A stretch of DNA of 35,437 bases. Source: Microcoleus sp. GA_180221_E-2-1-MAG-45_12 (GTDB taxonomy: Bacteria; Cyanobacteriota; Cyanobacteriia; Cyanobacteriales; JAAUUE01). The stretch lies in the NCBI GenBank assembly GCA_020692245.1, contig JAIMKT010000041.1, positions 1 to 35,437 on the forward strand. The letters are read 5' to 3'. The position numbers were made by a program, and so were the translations under genes. This document shows positions 7,082 through 35,437 of this stretch, piece by piece (positions within the stretch are counted from its first letter, which is position 1; each line of letters starts with the position of its first letter). A model generated the notes under the pieces. It had not been told where the DNA came from. It ran no database searches and saw nothing but the letters and a program-made list of their open reading frames with translations.

Positions 7082-8821
7082 ATGGGAGAACTTAGCCTGC
7101 GTATCCACATCGAAGGATTTGCAGAGAAAATTATCAAAGTAGATAAGAATCCTTTTGTGATTGGGCGATTACCAGAGTGTGATCTGCCCCTGATCTACAT
7201 TGAGGTATCCCGCTACCATGCACGGTTGAGTGGCTCCCATTCTGGAACTTGGATTGTTGAGGATTTGGGCAGCACTAATGGCACCAAGCTGAACGACACG
7301 ATTATTTCTGCACCCCAGAAGATTCGGGATGGGGATTTTTTGCAGATTGGCAATGTGGGTATGTATGTGATGCTAATGAAGCCGCCCCGGGATGTGGCTC
7401 GTGATATGTCTACAGAGGGTTTGACGATTATCCGAGATGTGAAGTATTTACAGGAGCAATGGTTGCAAGCCGAGGATCCTGATGACCAGTCGGCAACTCC
7501 CGAACGGGCGATCGACCGCCTCAAGGAATTGGTAAATATTGCTAAAGCCCTGAACTCGGCAGAATCCATTGAAGCAATTTTTTCTCAGGTGAAGGAAGTT
7601 GTGTTTCGAGAACTCAAGGATATCGATCGCTTGGCTCTACTGGTCGATGTCACTGCTACTGGGAAGCTAGAACTCCTGAATGCAGCGGGACGGGATACGA
7701 GCCACGAAGTTAATATGATTGCTGATGACCAGTGGATTAGCCACACTATCTGTCAGGCGGTTTTTAGTGACCAAATAGCCATCAAGACTGCCAATGCCCA
7801 GGTGGACGATCGCTTCCAAGGAGAAAATAGTATTCTTGCCAAGGGGATTTGTAGTGCCTTAGCTGTACCTCTCTGGGATGAAAATAAAATTTTTGGGGTT
7901 CTCTACGCTGATGCCCCCTCCGCAATCCATGACTGGCACCAAGGTGGGGAGGAAGACCTAAGCTTTTTTTCGACCCTGGCAAATCTTGTAGCCTCGGCCG
8001 TGCAACGCTGGCTCCTGACCCGACAACTCCGTCAAGAAGAAACCATCCGCCGGAGTCTAGAGCGCTACCATTCCCCCTCGGTGGTGCAGCAGATGATGAA
8101 AACTTCTGGTTTGGTTGATAGCCGGATTGTCCCAGCCGAATTTGATATCAGTATCCTCTTTGCAGATATTGTCGGCTTCACTGCCCTCTCTGAGCGCCTC
8201 AGCCCTAAAGAAATTTCTTCTCTGCTTAATGCCTTTTTTGAAGAAATGCTCCAAGAAGTATTTATGGTGGGGGGAACCCTCGATAAATTTATTGGGGATT
8301 GTATTATGGCTTTTTTTGGAGCTCCAGAACCCCAAGTTGATCATGCACTCCGGGCGACCCAAGCTGCCCAAGGAATGCTCCGCCGCCTCGCCCGACTCAA
8401 TGCCCATCATGTGCTTTCGGAACCCCTAGAACTCCGCATTGCTGTAAATAGTGGTAAAGCTGTAGTGGGAGATTTGGGCAGTTCTCAACGGGTGGACTAC
8501 ACGGCGCTGGGGGGAACCATTAACCTAGCCTCCCGCATGGAAGGTATCTGTCCACCGGGGAAGTGCGTTGTCAGTGAAGTTACCTATAACCAGTTGGATA
8601 GTGCCAAAGAAAATTTTCAACTTTTGGGAGAGCATCGGTTCAAGGGGATCGATCGACCGATTTTAATTTATGAAAGTATGATCACTTCTTCGATCTCCCT
8701 AGGCAAACCCCAAAGCCCACAACAAAGTCCACAACAAAGTCCACAACAAAGCCATCGCAAGCCCCCACCACCACCACCGCCGCCCCAAAATATCACCCCC
8801 AAGAGAAGTAATCTGGCTTAA
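7082..8821 (+). CDS. FHA-GAF class III adenylate cyclase
   Basis: A cytosolic 579-residue signalling enzyme predicted to make cAMP from ATP. Domains in order: an FHA phosphothreonine-binding domain at about 20-100 (VIGRLPECDL, SRYHARLSG, DLGSTNGTKL), a GAF sensor domain at about 150-320, and a class III cyclase domain at about 350-520. Metal-binding Asp362 sits in FADIVGFTAL and Asp406 in DKFIGD. The adenine-specifying pair is Lys402 and Thr474 (VDYTALGG), the Lys/Thr arrangement of cyanobacterial CyaB-type adenylate cyclases. Asn481 and Arg485 of NLASR are the transition-state residues. All key residues are present, so it should be active as a homodimer. The C-terminal tail has three SPQQ repeats, then an eight-proline run. 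The start has GTGAGGT upstream. It stands alone; the GAF ligand is unknown. Confidence 0.93.
   Translation: MGELSLRIHIEGFAEKIIKVDKNPFVIGRLPECDLPLIYIEVSRYHARLSGSHSGTWIVEDLGSTNGTKLNDTIISAPQKIRDGDFLQIGNVGMYVMLMKPPRDVARDMSTEGLTIIRDVKYLQEQWLQAEDPDDQSATPERAIDRLKELVNIAKALNSAESIEAIFSQVKEVVFRELKDIDRLALLVDVTATGKLELLNAAGRDTSHEVNMIADDQWISHTICQAVFSDQIAIKTANAQVDDRFQGENSILAKGICSALAVPLWDENKIFGVLYADAPSAIHDWHQGGEEDLSFFSTLANLVASAVQRWLLTRQLRQEETIRRSLERYHSPSVVQQMMKTSGLVDSRIVPAEFDISILFADIVGFTALSERLSPKEISSLLNAFFEEMLQEVFMVGGTLDKFIGDCIMAFFGAPEPQVDHALRATQAAQGMLRRLARLNAHHVLSEPLELRIAVNSGKAVVGDLGSSQRVDYTALGGTINLASRMEGICPPGKCVVSEVTYNQLDSAKENFQLLGEHRFKGIDRPILIYESMITSSISLGKPQSPQQSPQQSPQQSHRKPPPPPPPPQNITPKRSNLA
8713..8757 (+). 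repeat. 12-base tandem repeat in the cyclase C-terminal coding region
   Basis: The unit CCACAACAAAGT is repeated about three times and encodes SPQQ repeats. It is followed by a CCACCACCACCGCCGCC tract encoding eight prolines. The repeat is a multiple of three, so length changes keep the frame. It lies outside the catalytic domain, in a likely disordered tail. Confidence 0.85.
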
Positions 8822-29140: not shown

Positions 29141-30064
29141 ATGACTGATCACGATCGCCTATTCAAAGAACTTCTATCTACCTTTTTTCTCGAGTTTTTA
29201 GAACTCTTCCTTCCCGAAATTGCCAGCACTCTCGATCGAGCATCCCTGCGCTTTCTCCCTCAAGAATATTTTGCTGACCTGACAGCAGGAGAAGAGCAAG
29301 TGATTGATTTGCTAGTAGAAGTGAAGCAGGCTGGCGAAGAGGTGGGCTTTCTGCTCCATGTAGAGGCTCAATCCTATGTGCAGCAGAATTTCAATCGCCG
29401 CATGTTCTTCTATTTTGCTCGACTGCATCAGAAATATTTGCAACGAATTTACCCGATCGTGGTGTTTTCCTTTGATGAACCCCAGCGAGAGGAGCCTTCG
29501 ACCTACACAGTAGAATTTCCCCATCTGCGGGTATTGGAATTTAGCTTTGAATCCATCCAGTTAAATCGCCTCAACTGGCGAGATTATTTAACCCAACAAA
29601 ATCCTGTTGCTGCTGCCTTGATGGCAAAAATGCGAATAGCACCGGGCGATCGCCCCAAAGTTAAAGCTGAGTGTCTAAGAATATTGGCAACACTACGATT
29701 AGACCCCGCCCGGACTCGATTGATTTCTGGGTTTGTGGATACCTATCTACGGCTGAATGCTCAGGAGAAAGAGGTATTTGAGGAGGAGATTGGTAAACTA
29801 GAAGAAAGAGAACGAGAGGGCATTATGCAGATTACAACTAGTTGGCTAGAGCAAGGTATTGAGCAAGGTATTGAGCAAGGAGTTCAGAGAGAAGCTAAGT
29901 CACTCATTTTTCGGCTGCTTAATCGGCGGGTAGGTGAGTTGCCGGAGCGGGTACGATCGCAAATTGAAGTGCTACCCCTAGCTGAATTAGAGGCTTTAGC
30001 GGAAGCATTGCTAGATTTCTCTGGTTTACCTGATCTAGAAGCGTGGCTGGCAAAGGGTACCTAA
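29141..30064 (+). CDS. Rpn/PDDEXK-type nuclease with DUF4351 domain
   Basis: 307-residue protein of the PD-(D/E)XK nuclease-transposase/Rpn type that is abundant in cyanobacteria. The N-terminus is DHDRLFKELLSTFFLEFLEL. The active-site region is DLLVEVK with FLLHVEAQSYVQ, matching the E-x-Q-S pattern of the fold. The middle (RLHQKYLQRIYPIVVFSFDE) is typical. At the C-terminus a DUF4351 domain (about 250-305) reads SLIFRLLNRRVGELPERV and LEALAEALLDFSGLPDLEAW. Just before it, a 12-base tandem repeat encodes GIEQGIEQG. No transposon ends were seen. Related Rpn proteins promote recombination by DNA cleavage; this one's activity is inference. No clear ribosome binding site. Confidence 0.88.
   Translation: MTDHDRLFKELLSTFFLEFLELFLPEIASTLDRASLRFLPQEYFADLTAGEEQVIDLLVEVKQAGEEVGFLLHVEAQSYVQQNFNRRMFFYFARLHQKYLQRIYPIVVFSFDEPQREEPSTYTVEFPHLRVLEFSFESIQLNRLNWRDYLTQQNPVAAALMAKMRIAPGDRPKVKAECLRILATLRLDPARTRLISGFVDTYLRLNAQEKEVFEEEIGKLEEREREGIMQITTSWLEQGIEQGIEQGVQREAKSLIFRLLNRRVGELPERVRSQIEVLPLAELEALAEALLDFSGLPDLEAWLAKGT
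29851..29886 (+). repeat. 12-base tandem repeat encoding GIEQ
   Basis: GAGCAAGGTATT is repeated about 2.5 times inside the DUF4351 gene. It keeps the frame, and variation in copy number between strains would be expected. Confidence 0.8.
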
Positions 30065-30284: not shown

Positions 30285-32501
30285 ATGACCAACTCCCCTC
30301 CCAAAACCCTCCTCCGTCAAATAACTCGCTTTGTCGGTTCGGCCCTGAAGCTCAAGCCGAATACCCGTGTGCCGGAACTGTGGGTACAGGAATCGGGAGC
30401 TAGTCAAGCCACTATTTATCCTCTACTGGGCGATCGCCACGTTCTTGGGCGGAGTTCCCAATGTGATCTAGTTGTCGCCAGCCCGGTGGTTAGCCAAGTG
30501 CATTTATCTCTGAATCGAGATAGTAAGTATAAGCGCACCTTCCGACTCCGGGATGAAGAATCGACCAACGGGGTGTATCTGGGTAAACGCAGGATTAATA
30601 ACTTTCCTCTCCGTCATGGGGATACTTTGACCCTTGGGCCGCCGGAACTCCTGCAAGCTGTCCGCCTCCGCTATGTCTTTCCGCCTCCTTGGTATGTTTT
30701 GGCATGGCGGTATTTTCTCTACGGTGTGGGTAGCATTGTGGCTCTGTTGGTGGTGGTAGTCGCGATCGAGGGGAGTAAATTTCCAGTGCGTCCCCTACCT
30801 GCGGGAGTCCAAGGCCCAGTGGTTATCTACTCCCGTGATGGACAAACTCCCCTCCGCCCCCTCGAAACCCAAGCCCATCAGGAAATGCGGAGCCTGAGTG
30901 AATATTCGCCTTACCTGCCCCAAGCCGTCATTGCCTCGGAAGATAGTCGTTTCTATTGGCATTTTGGCGTAGATCCCCTAGGGATTGTCCGAGCCTTGGT
31001 GACAAATTTCCAGCAAGGAGAACTCGTGGAAGGTGCTAGTACCCTCTCCCAGCAGTTGGCTCGGAGTTTATTTCCAGAAACCGTGGGCAGGGAAGACACG
31101 GCGGGACGGAAATGGCGGGAGGCGGTAGTGGCTCTGAAATTAGAAACTTTCTATAGTAAGGATCACCTGCTATTGACTTATCTCAACAAGGTTTATCTAG
31201 GTTTAGGAAATTACGGTTTTGAAGATGCTTCTCGCTTTTATTTTGATAAGCCAGCCAAGGATTTAAGTATTGGTGAAGCTGCCGCTCTTGTAGCTATTCT
31301 TCCGGCTCCCAACAGCTATAATCCTCTCCGGGACTATGAAACTACGGTGCAATTGCGCGATCGAGTGATTAACCGCATGGCAAATCTGGGCATGATCAGC
31401 GATGAAGAGGCAACTAGAGCCCGGCGATCGAGAATTGAGATCAGTCCCAAAGCACGGGAAGCCCTATCCCAAATTAAAGCCCCTTATTTTTATAGTTATA
31501 TCTTTGAGGAGCTACGACAGGTTTTGGGGGAAGAGTTGGCAAAGGAGGGAAATTTCATTGTGGAATCTACGGTGGATTTAACTGCCCAGAGCAGCGCCGA
31601 AACTGCCCTCAAAAATCTGGTTGCCCAAGCAGGGGATAGCCTACAAATTTCCCAAGGGGCGATCGCTACCCTAAATACGACTAACGGTGATCTCCTTGCC
31701 CTCGTGGGGGGTGTAGATTATCTAGAAACCCAGTTCGATCGAGCCACCCAAGCCCAACGCCAACCGGGATCAACCTTTAAGGTGTTTGCCTACCTTGCAG
31801 CCCTGGAGCAGGGAATTTCCCCAGCCACAGCCTACTCCTGTAGTCCCCTCACTTGGGCGGGACAGAGCTATCGGGGGTGCGATCGATCGAGTGGCAGCAT
31901 TAATATGTACCGAGGCATGGCGCAATCAGAAAATGCCGTAGCCCTCCGCATTGCTCAAGAAGCTGGTTTAGATAAGGTGATCCAAATTGCCAAGAAAATG
32001 GGAATTACTTCTGAGCTGCGATCGGCTCCCGGCTTAATTTTGGGGGAGAGTGAAGTGAACTTACTAGAAATGACCTCAGCTTTTGGAAGCTTGGCAAACC
32101 AAGGGGTCTGGAACCGGGGGCATGGCATCCGCCGGATTATTGATAGTGGTGACTGTCAAGACCGAAACAATCCTCAAACCTGCCGGGTAATCTACGATTA
32201 TGAGCAACAGTCAAACCGGAATATTCCTGTAGTTACTCCCCAAGTAGCGGAAACCATGACCCAGCTATTACAAGGAGTGATCCAGAGTGGCACGGGGGGC
32301 GGGGCAGCGATCGGGCTTGATGAGGCAGGGAAGACTGGCACAACCAACGACAATGTGGACTTATGGTTCATTGGTTACAGTGAGCAAATGCAAAAAGCTA
32401 CGGGGGTCTGGTTAGGGAATGATGACAACAGTCCGACCCGTGGCAGTAGTGGGATTGCAGCGCAGTTGTGGGGTAACTACATGGCACAATTGAGAGGCTA
32501 G
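30285..32501 (+). CDS. class A penicillin-binding protein with N-terminal FHA domain
   Basis: 738-residue bifunctional peptidoglycan synthase (PBP1A type) anchored in the inner membrane. An FHA domain lies in the cytosolic N-terminus at about 45-125 (HVLGRSSQCDLVV, SQVHLSLNR, DEESTNGVYL). The TM helix is at about 138-160. The glycosyltransferase 51 domain follows, with catalytic Glu219 in VIASEDSRFYWH and GASTLSQQLARSLF. The transpeptidase domain has Ser496-Thr-Phe-Lys499 (PGSTFKVF), Ser548-Glu-Asn (AQSENAVAL) and Lys683-Thr-Gly-Thr. All catalytic residues are intact. The FHA domain should bind a phosphothreonine protein, so activity may answer to the Ser/Thr kinase encoded tail-to-tail 67 bases downstream. 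The ATG has no Shine-Dalgarno. Confidence 0.96.
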   Translation: MTNSPPKTLLRQITRFVGSALKLKPNTRVPELWVQESGASQATIYPLLGDRHVLGRSSQCDLVVASPVVSQVHLSLNRDSKYKRTFRLRDEESTNGVYLGKRRINNFPLRHGDTLTLGPPELLQAVRLRYVFPPPWYVLAWRYFLYGVGSIVALLVVVVAIEGSKFPVRPLPAGVQGPVVIYSRDGQTPLRPLETQAHQEMRSLSEYSPYLPQAVIASEDSRFYWHFGVDPLGIVRALVTNFQQGELVEGASTLSQQLARSLFPETVGREDTAGRKWREAVVALKLETFYSKDHLLLTYLNKVYLGLGNYGFEDASRFYFDKPAKDLSIGEAAALVAILPAPNSYNPLRDYETTVQLRDRVINRMANLGMISDEEATRARRSRIEISPKAREALSQIKAPYFYSYIFEELRQVLGEELAKEGNFIVESTVDLTAQSSAETALKNLVAQAGDSLQISQGAIATLNTTNGDLLALVGGVDYLETQFDRATQAQRQPGSTFKVFAYLAALEQGISPATAYSCSPLTWAGQSYRGCDRSSGSINMYRGMAQSENAVALRIAQEAGLDKVIQIAKKMGITSELRSAPGLILGESEVNLLEMTSAFGSLANQGVWNRGHGIRRIIDSGDCQDRNNPQTCRVIYDYEQQSNRNIPVVTPQVAETMTQLLQGVIQSGTGGGAAIGLDEAGKTGTTNDNVDLWFIGYSEQMQKATGVWLGNDDNSPTRGSSGIAAQLWGNYMAQLRG

Positions 32502-32568
32502 ATTAGAAGCTAGATTATAAGGCCTATAGTTTTTGGAAAGTTAGAATCTTGAAGTAGAAAGTTAGACT

Positions 32569-33750
32569 TTAAAGATCAGTTTCCGAGATCGGCCAGTTTT
32601 GTCGGGGGGGGAAGGATTGCTCGGTGTGTAACATCGAATCACCGGGGACGATCGGACGATAAATTCTCACAGCCAAACCAAAGCCAGCCCCAGAAATCCC
32701 GGCGATCGCTCCAGTGAATACCAATAGCTTGAGAATAGAAGAAGACTTCATCGGCGAATTTTGAAGATTTGGCAATGTTCTAGAGTTAGATAGTCTAGAT
32801 GCTCTGGTGATCCCTGATGCTTCGGTGGAGTTTTTGGCTAGATTTCTGGAATTTCTAGAATTCTGAGATTTTTTGGAGTACTGAGAATTTTTAGAATTTT
32901 TAGAATTTTTAGCTTGTTCTGAAACCATTGCTCCCAGATTATCTTCCACAGGAGCAAGGAGTTTATCCGGCAAAAGTGCTAACCAAGATTTTAGATCCGG
33001 CGATCGCCATTCTGCTCCCTGAAGACCGAAGTGAAAAATGGCTTGCTCTAATCTGGGGTCGATGTTAGTTAGTTCAGGATGGGGATAGGGATGGTTGACT
33101 CTAGCGATCGCTGGAGGTTTTCCAGTCAAAAGGCTGTAACAAGTGGCAGCAAGAGAGTAGATATCATCTTTGGGGCTGGGGCTAAAATCCTGCGAATAGT
33201 ATTCTGGGGAAGCATAGCCAGCCAAGAGCAGATTGGCGTAGGTTTGGTGAATACCGAGGGTAAAGTTACATACAATTCCCACATCGGTTAGGACTAATTC
33301 TTCCGTGCCTTGCCGACAAATTATATTCTCTGGACGAACATCACCGTGGATCAACCCTCGATCGTGCATTTGCTCTAAAGCCGCCCCAATCTGCTTGGTA
33401 TAATTCACCACCTGATCTGAAGTAAACCGGATTCCAGATTTCTGTAATTCCCCCAACGTCTGCCCCGGTACATATTTCATTACCAAAAACGGCAGGTCAT
33501 TCTCTTCAAAACAATCAATCACTTGCGCTAAATAGGGATGCTCACACTGCCGGAGTAACTCCCCTGCGTGCATAAATTTGCTCTTAAAAGCCGGATAGTC
33601 CTCGTGGGCTTGGAGAGCAGGGGCAATGGTTTTGATCACGACTTCCTTGCCTTCAGGTTGGGCGATCGCTCTATAGGTAGTCCCGAAAATGCCTACGCCT
33701 AACTGTGATTCTAGGATGTATTTACCGTTGTTTAGAGTTGCGATCGCCAT
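32569..33750 (-). CDS. membrane-anchored Ser/Thr protein kinase
   Basis: About 393 residues from the ATG at 33750 (MAIATLNNGKYILESQLG). A longer frame from 33798 overlaps the previous gene. The kinase domain is at about 9-280: glycine loop GVGIFGTTY (18-26), Lys40 in VVIK, Glu64 in the C helix, catalytic loop HGDVRPEN (135-142) and DVG in place of DFG. Arg139 takes the place of the usual Lys of HRDLKPEN. The domain is followed by a low-complexity Ser/Asn/Lys linker (about 290-325) and one TM helix near 340-362 (LLVFTGAIAGISGAGFG), with a short outside tail. It faces the FHA-penicillin-binding-protein gene, a plausible binding partner or substrate. The start is 25 bases after the nucleotidyltransferase stop, so an operon is likely. 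Confidence 0.9.
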   Translation of the reverse strand: MAIATLNNGKYILESQLGVGIFGTTYRAIAQPEGKEVVIKTIAPALQAHEDYPAFKSKFMHAGELLRQCEHPYLAQVIDCFEENDLPFLVMKYVPGQTLGELQKSGIRFTSDQVVNYTKQIGAALEQMHDRGLIHGDVRPENIICRQGTEELVLTDVGIVCNFTLGIHQTYANLLLAGYASPEYYSQDFSPSPKDDIYSLAATCYSLLTGKPPAIARVNHPYPHPELTNIDPRLEQAIFHFGLQGAEWRSPDLKSWLALLPDKLLAPVEDNLGAMVSEQAKNSKNSKNSQYSKKSQNSRNSRNLAKNSTEASGITRASRLSNSRTLPNLQNSPMKSSSILKLLVFTGAIAGISGAGFGLAVRIYRPIVPGDSMLHTEQSFPPRQNWPISETDL

Positions 33751-33775
33751 TGTTTCAAAGGTTTCAAAGTTGTGT

Positions 33776-35398
33776 TTAATTATTAATTCCCATCCCATTT
33801 TGTAGAGGGAAATAAGTTTCTAGAAAAGTCACTGCATTATGTTGATCTGTGACTAAGCCATCTAAGGTAGCAGCGAGGAGAGCTTCAAGGATGACTTTGT
33901 ACTGTTTGCCCGGCAGGTAGCCCAAACTTTGTAGAGCTTTGCCATCAAGGGGCGATCGAACTTCACTCCAAACGGTCAGGTATTGCCAAATATACCGCCG
34001 CCAAGTAGAGGAACTCCTTCCAGCTATCAATAATAGCAATGAACTATCATAGTATCGTAATATTTCTACAACATTACTAACAGCCAACTTAGTTACAACT
34101 GGGGATAAATTTGCTGGATTTGATAATAAATCTGGGGATGAATCTGGGTCGATCGCCTCCAGCACCTTTTCAGCCTGAGCTAGGGTTTCAAGTCTTAGGA
34201 TACTCTCTTGGGATAGTTTTAAGTTTTGAGCCACCAATCTCCGTTCCGAGGAAGGTAAAGCCGCAATGATTAGCTCTAGACGCATCAGCCAGTCTGGAGA
34301 CAGAGCCGAGAGAGCTTTGGGGAATTGAGTTGGTTGATTAAGTAGATTGTGTGGATTGTGTGGATTGTGTGGATTGACTAGATTATCTTGATTGCGTTGA
34401 TCCTGCTGAGGAAGTTTGCGGTACTGCACCAATTTGAGGAGGCGATCGAGCAACCGTACCTGTCGCCATAGCTGGGGATCAAGCTCTAATTTGGGATGCA
34501 GACATTTCCACGCCCCTAAATTTCCTAGTACCTTTGTCGCTGTTTGACTGTAGGCAGCTTGCAGGAGATACTTAATTTCCGTTTTAAGGCGATTTTGCAA
34601 TGCTGGAGCCTTTGAGTGAGTGCGGAGGATGCGATCGTAAATTCCACTGTTAATACTTCGATGTATCTGCGCTTTAGTTTCTGGTTCAAGGGCAAACCCC
34701 AAGCGCACCGCAAACCGCACCGCTCGATAAATCCGGGTAGGGTCATCAATAAAACTATCAGCATGAAGAACCCGTACCTGTTTGTTTAATAGATCTTGCC
34801 ATCCCCCAAAAAAATCTAACACTGAATAATCCGCCCCAGAACTAGGGGAATTTTGAGACAGACTTTGTAAATCAGCAGTTAGCCTCAGAGCCAAGGTATT
34901 GATCGTAAAATCTCGGCGGTAGAGGTCTTGATAAATAGAACTTGTTTTAACTTGAGGATTCGCCGCAGGATAGGCGTAGGATTCAGTTCTAGCGGTGGTC
35001 AAATCAATTTCTAGGGAACCAAAAATGGGGTCTTGATCCCAAATAATCGCCGCAGTCTGAAAATCTCCATGGATTTCTAGGTGTGCTTCGGGATGAAGTT
35101 TTTGTAATGCTTGAGCAACTTCCACCCCAGATCCTGCCTGCGGAGTGTGATGGTAACTATCGATAACTAAATCAATGTCGGTAAAATTTGGAGATTGAAG
35201 TGGAATATTTTCGGCTAAGTTTGGGGATTCTAAATTCTGAGATACTAAATTTTGAGAGAAATAAAGTAAATCCCGGACAACTCCCCCCACAAGATACAAA
35301 TGCCAACCTTTTTGGGATGCGATCGCCGCCGTTTCCCCAAGGATCGATCGAACCTCTGGGGTCAACAAACTCAAATCCGGCTGGGGAGCTACAGACAT
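33776..35398 (-). CDS. CCA-adding-type tRNA nucleotidyltransferase / poly(A) polymerase
   Basis: About 540 residues from the ATG at 35398 (MSVAPQPDLSLLTPEV). An upstream TTG at 35425 would add residues derived from a 12-base tandem repeat, so it was not used. Class II nucleotidyltransferase: Gly38-Gly39 and Arg42-Asp43 in LYLVGGVVRDLL, Asp74/Asp76 in DIDLVID, the RRDFTINTLALRL motif and RIYRAVRFAVRLGF. It adds CCA or A tails to RNA 3' ends. Compared with typical members it carries inserts: a repeat-like SQNL/SPNL stretch at about 48-72 between the two catalytic motifs, and an HNP repeat in the C-terminal half. In cyanobacteria the CCA and A-adding functions may be split between two genes; which one this is cannot be read from the sequence. 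Confidence 0.93.
   Translation of the reverse strand: MSVAPQPDLSLLTPEVRSILGETAAIASQKGWHLYLVGGVVRDLLYFSQNLVSQNLESPNLAENIPLQSPNFTDIDLVIDSYHHTPQAGSGVEVAQALQKLHPEAHLEIHGDFQTAAIIWDQDPIFGSLEIDLTTARTESYAYPAANPQVKTSSIYQDLYRRDFTINTLALRLTADLQSLSQNSPSSGADYSVLDFFGGWQDLLNKQVRVLHADSFIDDPTRIYRAVRFAVRLGFALEPETKAQIHRSINSGIYDRILRTHSKAPALQNRLKTEIKYLLQAAYSQTATKVLGNLGAWKCLHPKLELDPQLWRQVRLLDRLLKLVQYRKLPQQDQRNQDNLVNPHNPHNPHNLLNQPTQFPKALSALSPDWLMRLELIIAALPSSERRLVAQNLKLSQESILRLETLAQAEKVLEAIDPDSSPDLLSNPANLSPVVTKLAVSNVVEILRYYDSSLLLLIAGRSSSTWRRYIWQYLTVWSEVRSPLDGKALQSLGYLPGKQYKVILEALLAATLDGLVTDQHNAVTFLETYFPLQNGMGINN
34345..34376 (-). repeat. 9-base tandem repeat encoding HNP units
   Basis: The plus strand has GTGTGGATT about three times. 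In the gene it encodes repeated His-Asn-Pro. It lies in a polar Asn/Gln-rich linker of the nucleotidyltransferase. Confidence 0.85.
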
Positions 35399-35401
35399 AT
35401 A

Positions 35402-35437
35402 CTGAAAATCCAACTGAAAATCCAACTAAAAATCCAA
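35402..35437 (-). repeat. 12-base tandem repeat upstream of the nucleotidyltransferase gene
   Basis: On the minus strand TTGGATTTTCAG occurs three times (the outermost copy reads TTGGATTTTTAG), ending just before the ATG at 35398. It runs to the window edge, so the array may be longer. Confidence 0.85.

Follow-up and report, generated by a model that had tools for sequence, protein, structure and literature searches.

A window of 35,437 nucleotides, which forms contig C52 of a 4.2 Mb cyanobacterial assembly, carries a gene for a penicillin-binding protein (PBP) with an FHA domain that lies tail to tail with a gene for a membrane Ser/Thr kinase. The first-pass annotation of this DNA had suggested that the two could form a direct phospho-switch on peptidoglycan synthesis. 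The question raised by the locus is therefore whether the kinase serves the PBP that it faces, or whether the FHA domain of this PBP would read a signal of another origin. Gene calls throughout the analysis were stop-to-stop open reading frames.

Architecture and distribution of the FHA-PBP

The PBP gene (30285–32501, forward strand) encodes 738 residues in which FHA (residues 53–118; 30441–30638; E 9.6e-16), Transgly glycosyltransferase (residues 190–365; 30852–31379; E 1.2e-55) and Transpeptidase (residues 459–731; 31659–32477; E 1.1e-31) domains all scored above their Pfam cut-offs. The catalytic motifs ASEDSRF, GSTFK, SEN and KTGTT were all read directly in the translation, the last three within the transpeptidase domain. 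A single N-terminal transmembrane stretch lies between the FHA and the glycosyltransferase, and the FHA is predicted to be cytosolic from its position ahead of this stretch. With both enzymatic domains, a membrane anchor and the catalytic motifs, the protein is by its sequence a class A bifunctional PBP. Its score against the NCBIfam family PBP_1a_fam (TIGR02074) fell slightly under the cut-off (492.8 versus 508.75 bits) and it is therefore named here a class A PBP of PBP1A type rather than a TIGR02074 member. A DUF4351/Transposase_31 protein is encoded 5' of the PBP (29141–30064, forward strand) and had no tblastn match in the sister locus L037.

The FHA domain carries G55, R56 and S57, followed by S70 and H73 in an SxxH arrangement and by S93, T94, N95 and G96, and so shows the canonical phosphothreonine-type features (GR, SxxH and N(G)) on the FHA beta-sandwich. 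An AlphaFold2 model of the domain (pLDDT 84) resembled the solved structures of Rv1747 FHA-1, which was the top match, Slr1951 and FhaA, and the matches included FhaA bound to the intracellular domain of Rv3910. The complete FHA domain on a PBP1A-type synthase that the first-pass annotation had described was thus confirmed by profile and by site residues alike.

The distribution of this architecture was examined in a phylum sample of 244 genomes, using the FHA plus glycosyltransferase part as query and counting by hand. FHA-PBPs were present in all 93 sampled Cyanobacteriia outside Cyanobiaceae, window genome included, and identity to the query was 43–65% for nearly all of them besides the window itself. 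The match in genome G171 starts within the FHA domain, and the FHA of this protein was confirmed with Pfam. In classes other than Cyanobacteriia, the synthase part alone matched among the matches listed, and genome G244 possesses class A PBPs of which none of those found bears an FHA domain. R56, S70, H73 and N95 were invariant in all 131 cyanobacterial rows spanning these positions, including the Arg and Ser whose absence the annotation had named as evidence against its proposal. The FHA-PBP is accordingly nearly universal within Cyanobacteriia and the window protein is a typical one, belonging to the same family as other cyanobacterial FHA-containing PBP1A-type proteins with no difference found. 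The fusion had been called unusual, which holds outside cyanobacteria but not within Cyanobacteriia. No paper describing an FHA fusion in cyanobacterial PBPs was found in the open-licence literature, and an earlier description elsewhere is possible; cyanobacterial PBPs are the topic of Leganes et al. 2005, as that work is cited in PMC2211374.

In a FastTree phylogeny of 122 PBPs, the window PBP paired with that of L037, while the first Cyanobiaceae copies, the second Cyanobiaceae copies and the Thermostichales copies formed separate clades, each with a support of 1.0. The two Cyanobiaceae copies did not cluster together in this tree, which was rooted on FHA-less PBPs and was weakly supported at its deep nodes.

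The convergent kinase and its neighbours

The kinase gene occupies 32569–33750 of the reverse strand (alternative start 33798) and encodes a kinase domain (Pfam Pkinase, 2.6e-33; profile positions 2–198 at 33106–33717, reverse strand), a Ser/Asn-rich linker, one transmembrane stretch and a C-terminal LHTEQSFPPRQNWP tail, as delimited by profile, orthologue alignment and motif scan. The longest frame (32569–33798) comprises 409 residues, and since similarity to relatives begins only at about residue 15–18 of this numbering, Met17 at 33750 is the likelier start, as had been annotated. In alignment the catalytic Lys, the Asp (in HGD, not HRD), the Asn and the Asp of DVG are all kept, and by fold profile and catalytic residues together the protein is a Hanks-type Ser/Thr kinase. 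The earlier description of a membrane kinase facing the PBP at a distance of 67 bases was likewise correct; the gap between the convergent stop codons (32502–32568) was inspected for a shared terminator and contained no terminator-like stem.

When conservation of the gene pair across cyanobacterial genomes was examined, as the annotation had proposed, the tail-to-tail arrangement recurred only in G379, a genome of the same genus that is apparently the Coleofasciculaceae SM2_1_6 genome of sister locus L037, giving two species in total. Between these species identity was 97% for the PBP and 80–83% for the kinase, and purifying selection acts on both genes (dN/dS of about 0.03 and 0.17, respectively). 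A phylum-wide linkage of this kinase type to the FHA-PBP was rejected, as the adjacency is confined to the window genus. A general enrichment of kinases near FHA-PBPs was also rejected, since a kinase lay within 6 kb at 8 of 89 other loci against 7.1 expected from kinase density, a rough expectation that draws on first-look candidate kinase counts and includes stretches ending at contig ends. For loci of the window type, PBP homologues thus usually lie far from kinases, the outcome that the annotation had held to speak against a functional pair. Seventeen kinases scored above the Pfam cut-off in the window genome. At this number a gene has a kinase as one of its two neighbours with a probability of about 0.9%, and a survey of 89 loci should yield about 1.2 such cases by chance alone. 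At one further locus (G083, L166 761–3334), an FHA-kinase gene beside the FHA-PBP appears to have been broken by an integrase-type transposase.

The upstream same-strand neighbour of the window kinase, 25 bp before its Met17 start, encodes the polymerase half of an A-adding tRNA nucleotidyltransferase (33776–35425, reverse strand; Pfam PolyA_pol, with A-tRNAntase as the best NCBIfam match, below its cut-off). This gene pair was also found in G379 and in G056, G191 and G383, the last three representing three other genera in which the kinase orthologue follows directly after the nucleotidyltransferase gene on the same strand. The kinase family is small and is marked by a single transmembrane stretch followed by the C-terminal tail LHTEQSFPxRxxWP, which a motif scan located at 32590–32631 of the window (reverse strand) and at L239, L240, L274 and L277, mostly beside a tRNA nucleotidyltransferase gene; in G384 the tail motif was present and the nucleotidyltransferase gene was absent from the stretch read. 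No FHA-PBP was found within about 5 kb on each side of the family members outside the window genus (G056, G191, G383 and G384). The window kinase is therefore paired with the gene for the A-adding tRNA nucleotidyltransferase, and it adjoins the PBP in the window genus only.

The window nucleotidyltransferase itself is short, with 549 residues in comparison to open frames of about 900–1000 residues in most relatives, and an in-frame TAG occurs just upstream of it, at the contig end and inside a short repeated stretch. This may reflect a split gene, a mutation or an assembly error.

Kinase linkage in Thermostichales and Cyanobiaceae

Neighbouring genes for a kinase and an FHA effector that persist beyond one genus, as expected of a pair of the Rv1747/PknF kind, were found for the FHA-PBPs of Thermostichales and Cyanobiaceae and not for the window pair. 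The search covered nine genomes from the order to which G171 belongs, presumed to be Thermostichales. In G171, G247, G249, G250 and G251 the frame of a PknB-type kinase stops 3 nt short of the FHA-PBP frame that follows on the same strand, and G246 and G245 have a related kinase immediately upstream of the FHA-PBP, which in G245 is split across two frames. In G248 (L230 5115–5997) the central part of the kinase in front of the FHA-PBP, with the kinase domain, is missing and the PBP is intact, an observation counted against the FHA as a phospho-reader. In G244, the ninth genome, no FHA-PBP was found.

Within family f26, presumed to be Cyanobiaceae and represented by 151 genomes, a second FHA-PBP (PBP-II) occurred in 38 genomes. 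Strong matches to the kinase of the accompanying module were found in 39 genomes, namely the 38 with PBP-II and G135, and in all 38 the kinase was on the PBP-II contig, 1,111–1,613 bp from the PBP match. PBP-II is divergent to an operon encoding an FHA protein, the kinase, a vWA protein and a PP2C phosphatase, and this full order was read in about a dozen of the 38 genomes. Pfam identified FHA, Pkinase, VWA and PP2C at L181 and likewise at L178, the same order was recognised by similarity in L226–L229 and L256–L262, and the 30 loci L196–L225, read with a 1.5 kb flank, all contained the FHA gene and all but one the kinase start; the vWA and PP2C genes were read only at loci with longer stretches. 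The FHA and catalytic residues of PBP-II were invariant in the 35–39 spanning rows and the metal-site residues of the vWA and PP2C proteins were retained in 13–16 rows. In the FHA protein of the module itself, the Arg is kept in 29 of 35 rows and the Asn is mostly replaced by Asp, a drift that suggests it may bind differently. In G135 (C6; L255) the module kinase, vWA and PP2C genes are present, but PBP-II is absent and no clear FHA gene of the module was seen. A triad beside the PBP of G127 (L131) was considered and rejected, as the stretch between this PBP and a kinase-like TPR protein present there encodes no relative of the vWA or PP2C proteins.

Across the 151 Cyanobiaceae genomes, 89 had both an FHA-PBP and a kinase, one the PBP only, three the kinase only and 58 neither, where an FHA-PBP was scored by a best match with E below 1e-100 (or, for G275, via the match span), a kinase by a score above the Pfam cut-off, and classes were assigned by hand. 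The Fisher test gave p = 6e-37 with the kinship of the genomes ignored, and the single PBP-only genome is a fragmented assembly. FHA-PBPs and kinases have been lost together in this family; this is a correlation and not proof, because the genomes share ancestry and gene loss is extensive in small ones, and genome reduction in the Prochlorococcus-like clade, which confounds the co-loss, was counted against the phospho-reader explanation.

The FHA domain as a probable reader of kinase signals

We consider the window protein to be a standard cyanobacterial FHA class A PBP, in which the FHA would dock on the phosphothreonine of a partner and so couple wall synthesis to Ser/Thr-kinase signalling, with the window kinase not its dedicated partner, and give this reading a probability of about two in three. 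In this view the FHA-PBP is a bifunctional peptidoglycan synthase anchored in the membrane, and its cytosolic FHA would bind a phosphorylated partner, thereby recruiting or gating the synthase; judged from architecture and gene order, such binding would influence either the activity or the placement of the enzyme. The acting kinase would be encoded elsewhere in the genome in most cyanobacteria, window genome included, and in Thermostichales and Cyanobiaceae the neighbouring kinase or its substrate would be the first candidate partner.

The dedicated local pair of the first-pass annotation, in which the window kinase would autophosphorylate its linker or activation loop for FHA binding or would phosphorylate the PBP, appears very unlikely. 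The adjacency in both species of the genus, the purifying selection on both genes and the membrane location of both proteins are as such a pair would have them, but the adjacency is absent from every other genus sampled, the conserved neighbour of the kinase is the tRNA nucleotidyltransferase gene, the convergent genes have no common promoter and a survey of this size would turn up about one such neighbour pair by chance. In addition, a conserved FHA-binding site (pThr-x-x-D/I/L) was sought in the kinase linker by orthologue alignment and none was seen, the linker being poorly conserved and too variable. What stands of the proposal is the notion of a PBP that reads Ser/Thr-kinase signals, for which the conserved kinase linkage in the two other lineages argues, and not the window kinase as its partner.

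Some FHA domains function without phosphate, which was counted against the phospho-reader, and GarA and OdhI are known to bind the enzymes that they target in a phosphate-independent manner. Complexes of this kind were among the structural match entries of the window FHA and, together with the near-universal presence of the domain in the face of no universally linked kinase, are consistent with a phosphate-independent FHA that serves docking or dimerisation and links the PBP to the divisome or elongasome, the kinase linkage being incidental. We regard this as unlikely, since the Arg, Ser and Asn that contact phosphothreonine are invariant in FHA-PBPs while Arg and Asn drift in the non-PBP FHA protein of the module, and since the FHA-PBP persists in hardly any Cyanobiaceae genome that lacks a Hanks kinase.

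The conserved kinase clusters of Thermostichales and Cyanobiaceae indicate that wall-building may really be under protein-phosphorylation control. We lean slightly towards a broader form of the phospho-reader explanation, in which the phosphothreonine reader fused to a class A synthase is a Ser/Thr-kinase output throughout the phylum, PBP-II being dedicated to the Cyanobiaceae kinase/PP2C/vWA/FHA module and the Thermostichales FHA-PBP to the preceding PknB-type kinase. Most of what is known about kinases that control wall synthesis comes from mycobacteria and Gram-positives, where they act via separate adaptor proteins, and the targets of cyanobacterial kinases are largely unknown; a synthase with its own reader, as proposed here for nearly all cyanobacteria, would, if true, provide a short and testable link from kinases to cell growth.

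Precedent for the mechanism comes from the mycobacterial FhaA and Rv1747 systems, whose functions are taken from a review (PMC6213207) and in part from general knowledge. In the PknB–MviN (Rv3910)–FhaA (Rv0020c) system an FHA reads a Ser/Thr-kinase signal at the wall-synthesis machinery, as is proposed for the FHA-PBP, and the FhaA FHA was among the best fold matches of the window domain; however, FhaA is a separate protein that binds a phosphorylated flippase-like pseudokinase, whereas the cyanobacterial FHA is fused to the synthase. Rv1747, an FHA-ABC transporter paired with PknF, and EmbR, paired with PknH, resemble the FHA-PBP in having an FHA fused to an effector. Their effectors are kinase substrates with a transporter or regulator function rather than PBPs, and, as a further difference, the window kinase is not conserved at its locus.

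The Cyanobiaceae operon, which unites FHA, kinase-like, vWA and PP2C proteins, presumably resembles the vWA–PP2C–kinase triads of TerY-P type and also the T6SS PpkA/PppA/Fha1 pathway. No secretion (T6SS) or tellurite genes were found among the Cyanobiaceae proteins scanned (part of the frames within about 6 kb on each side), and the constant neighbour is the divergent class A PBP. The locus offers a small candidate set, a single kinase, phosphatase and synthase, in genomes that encode very few kinases besides. The window itself encodes a second FHA protein (7082–8821, forward strand) of FHA–GAF–adenylate/guanylate cyclase architecture, which adds a further FHA effector to this genome.
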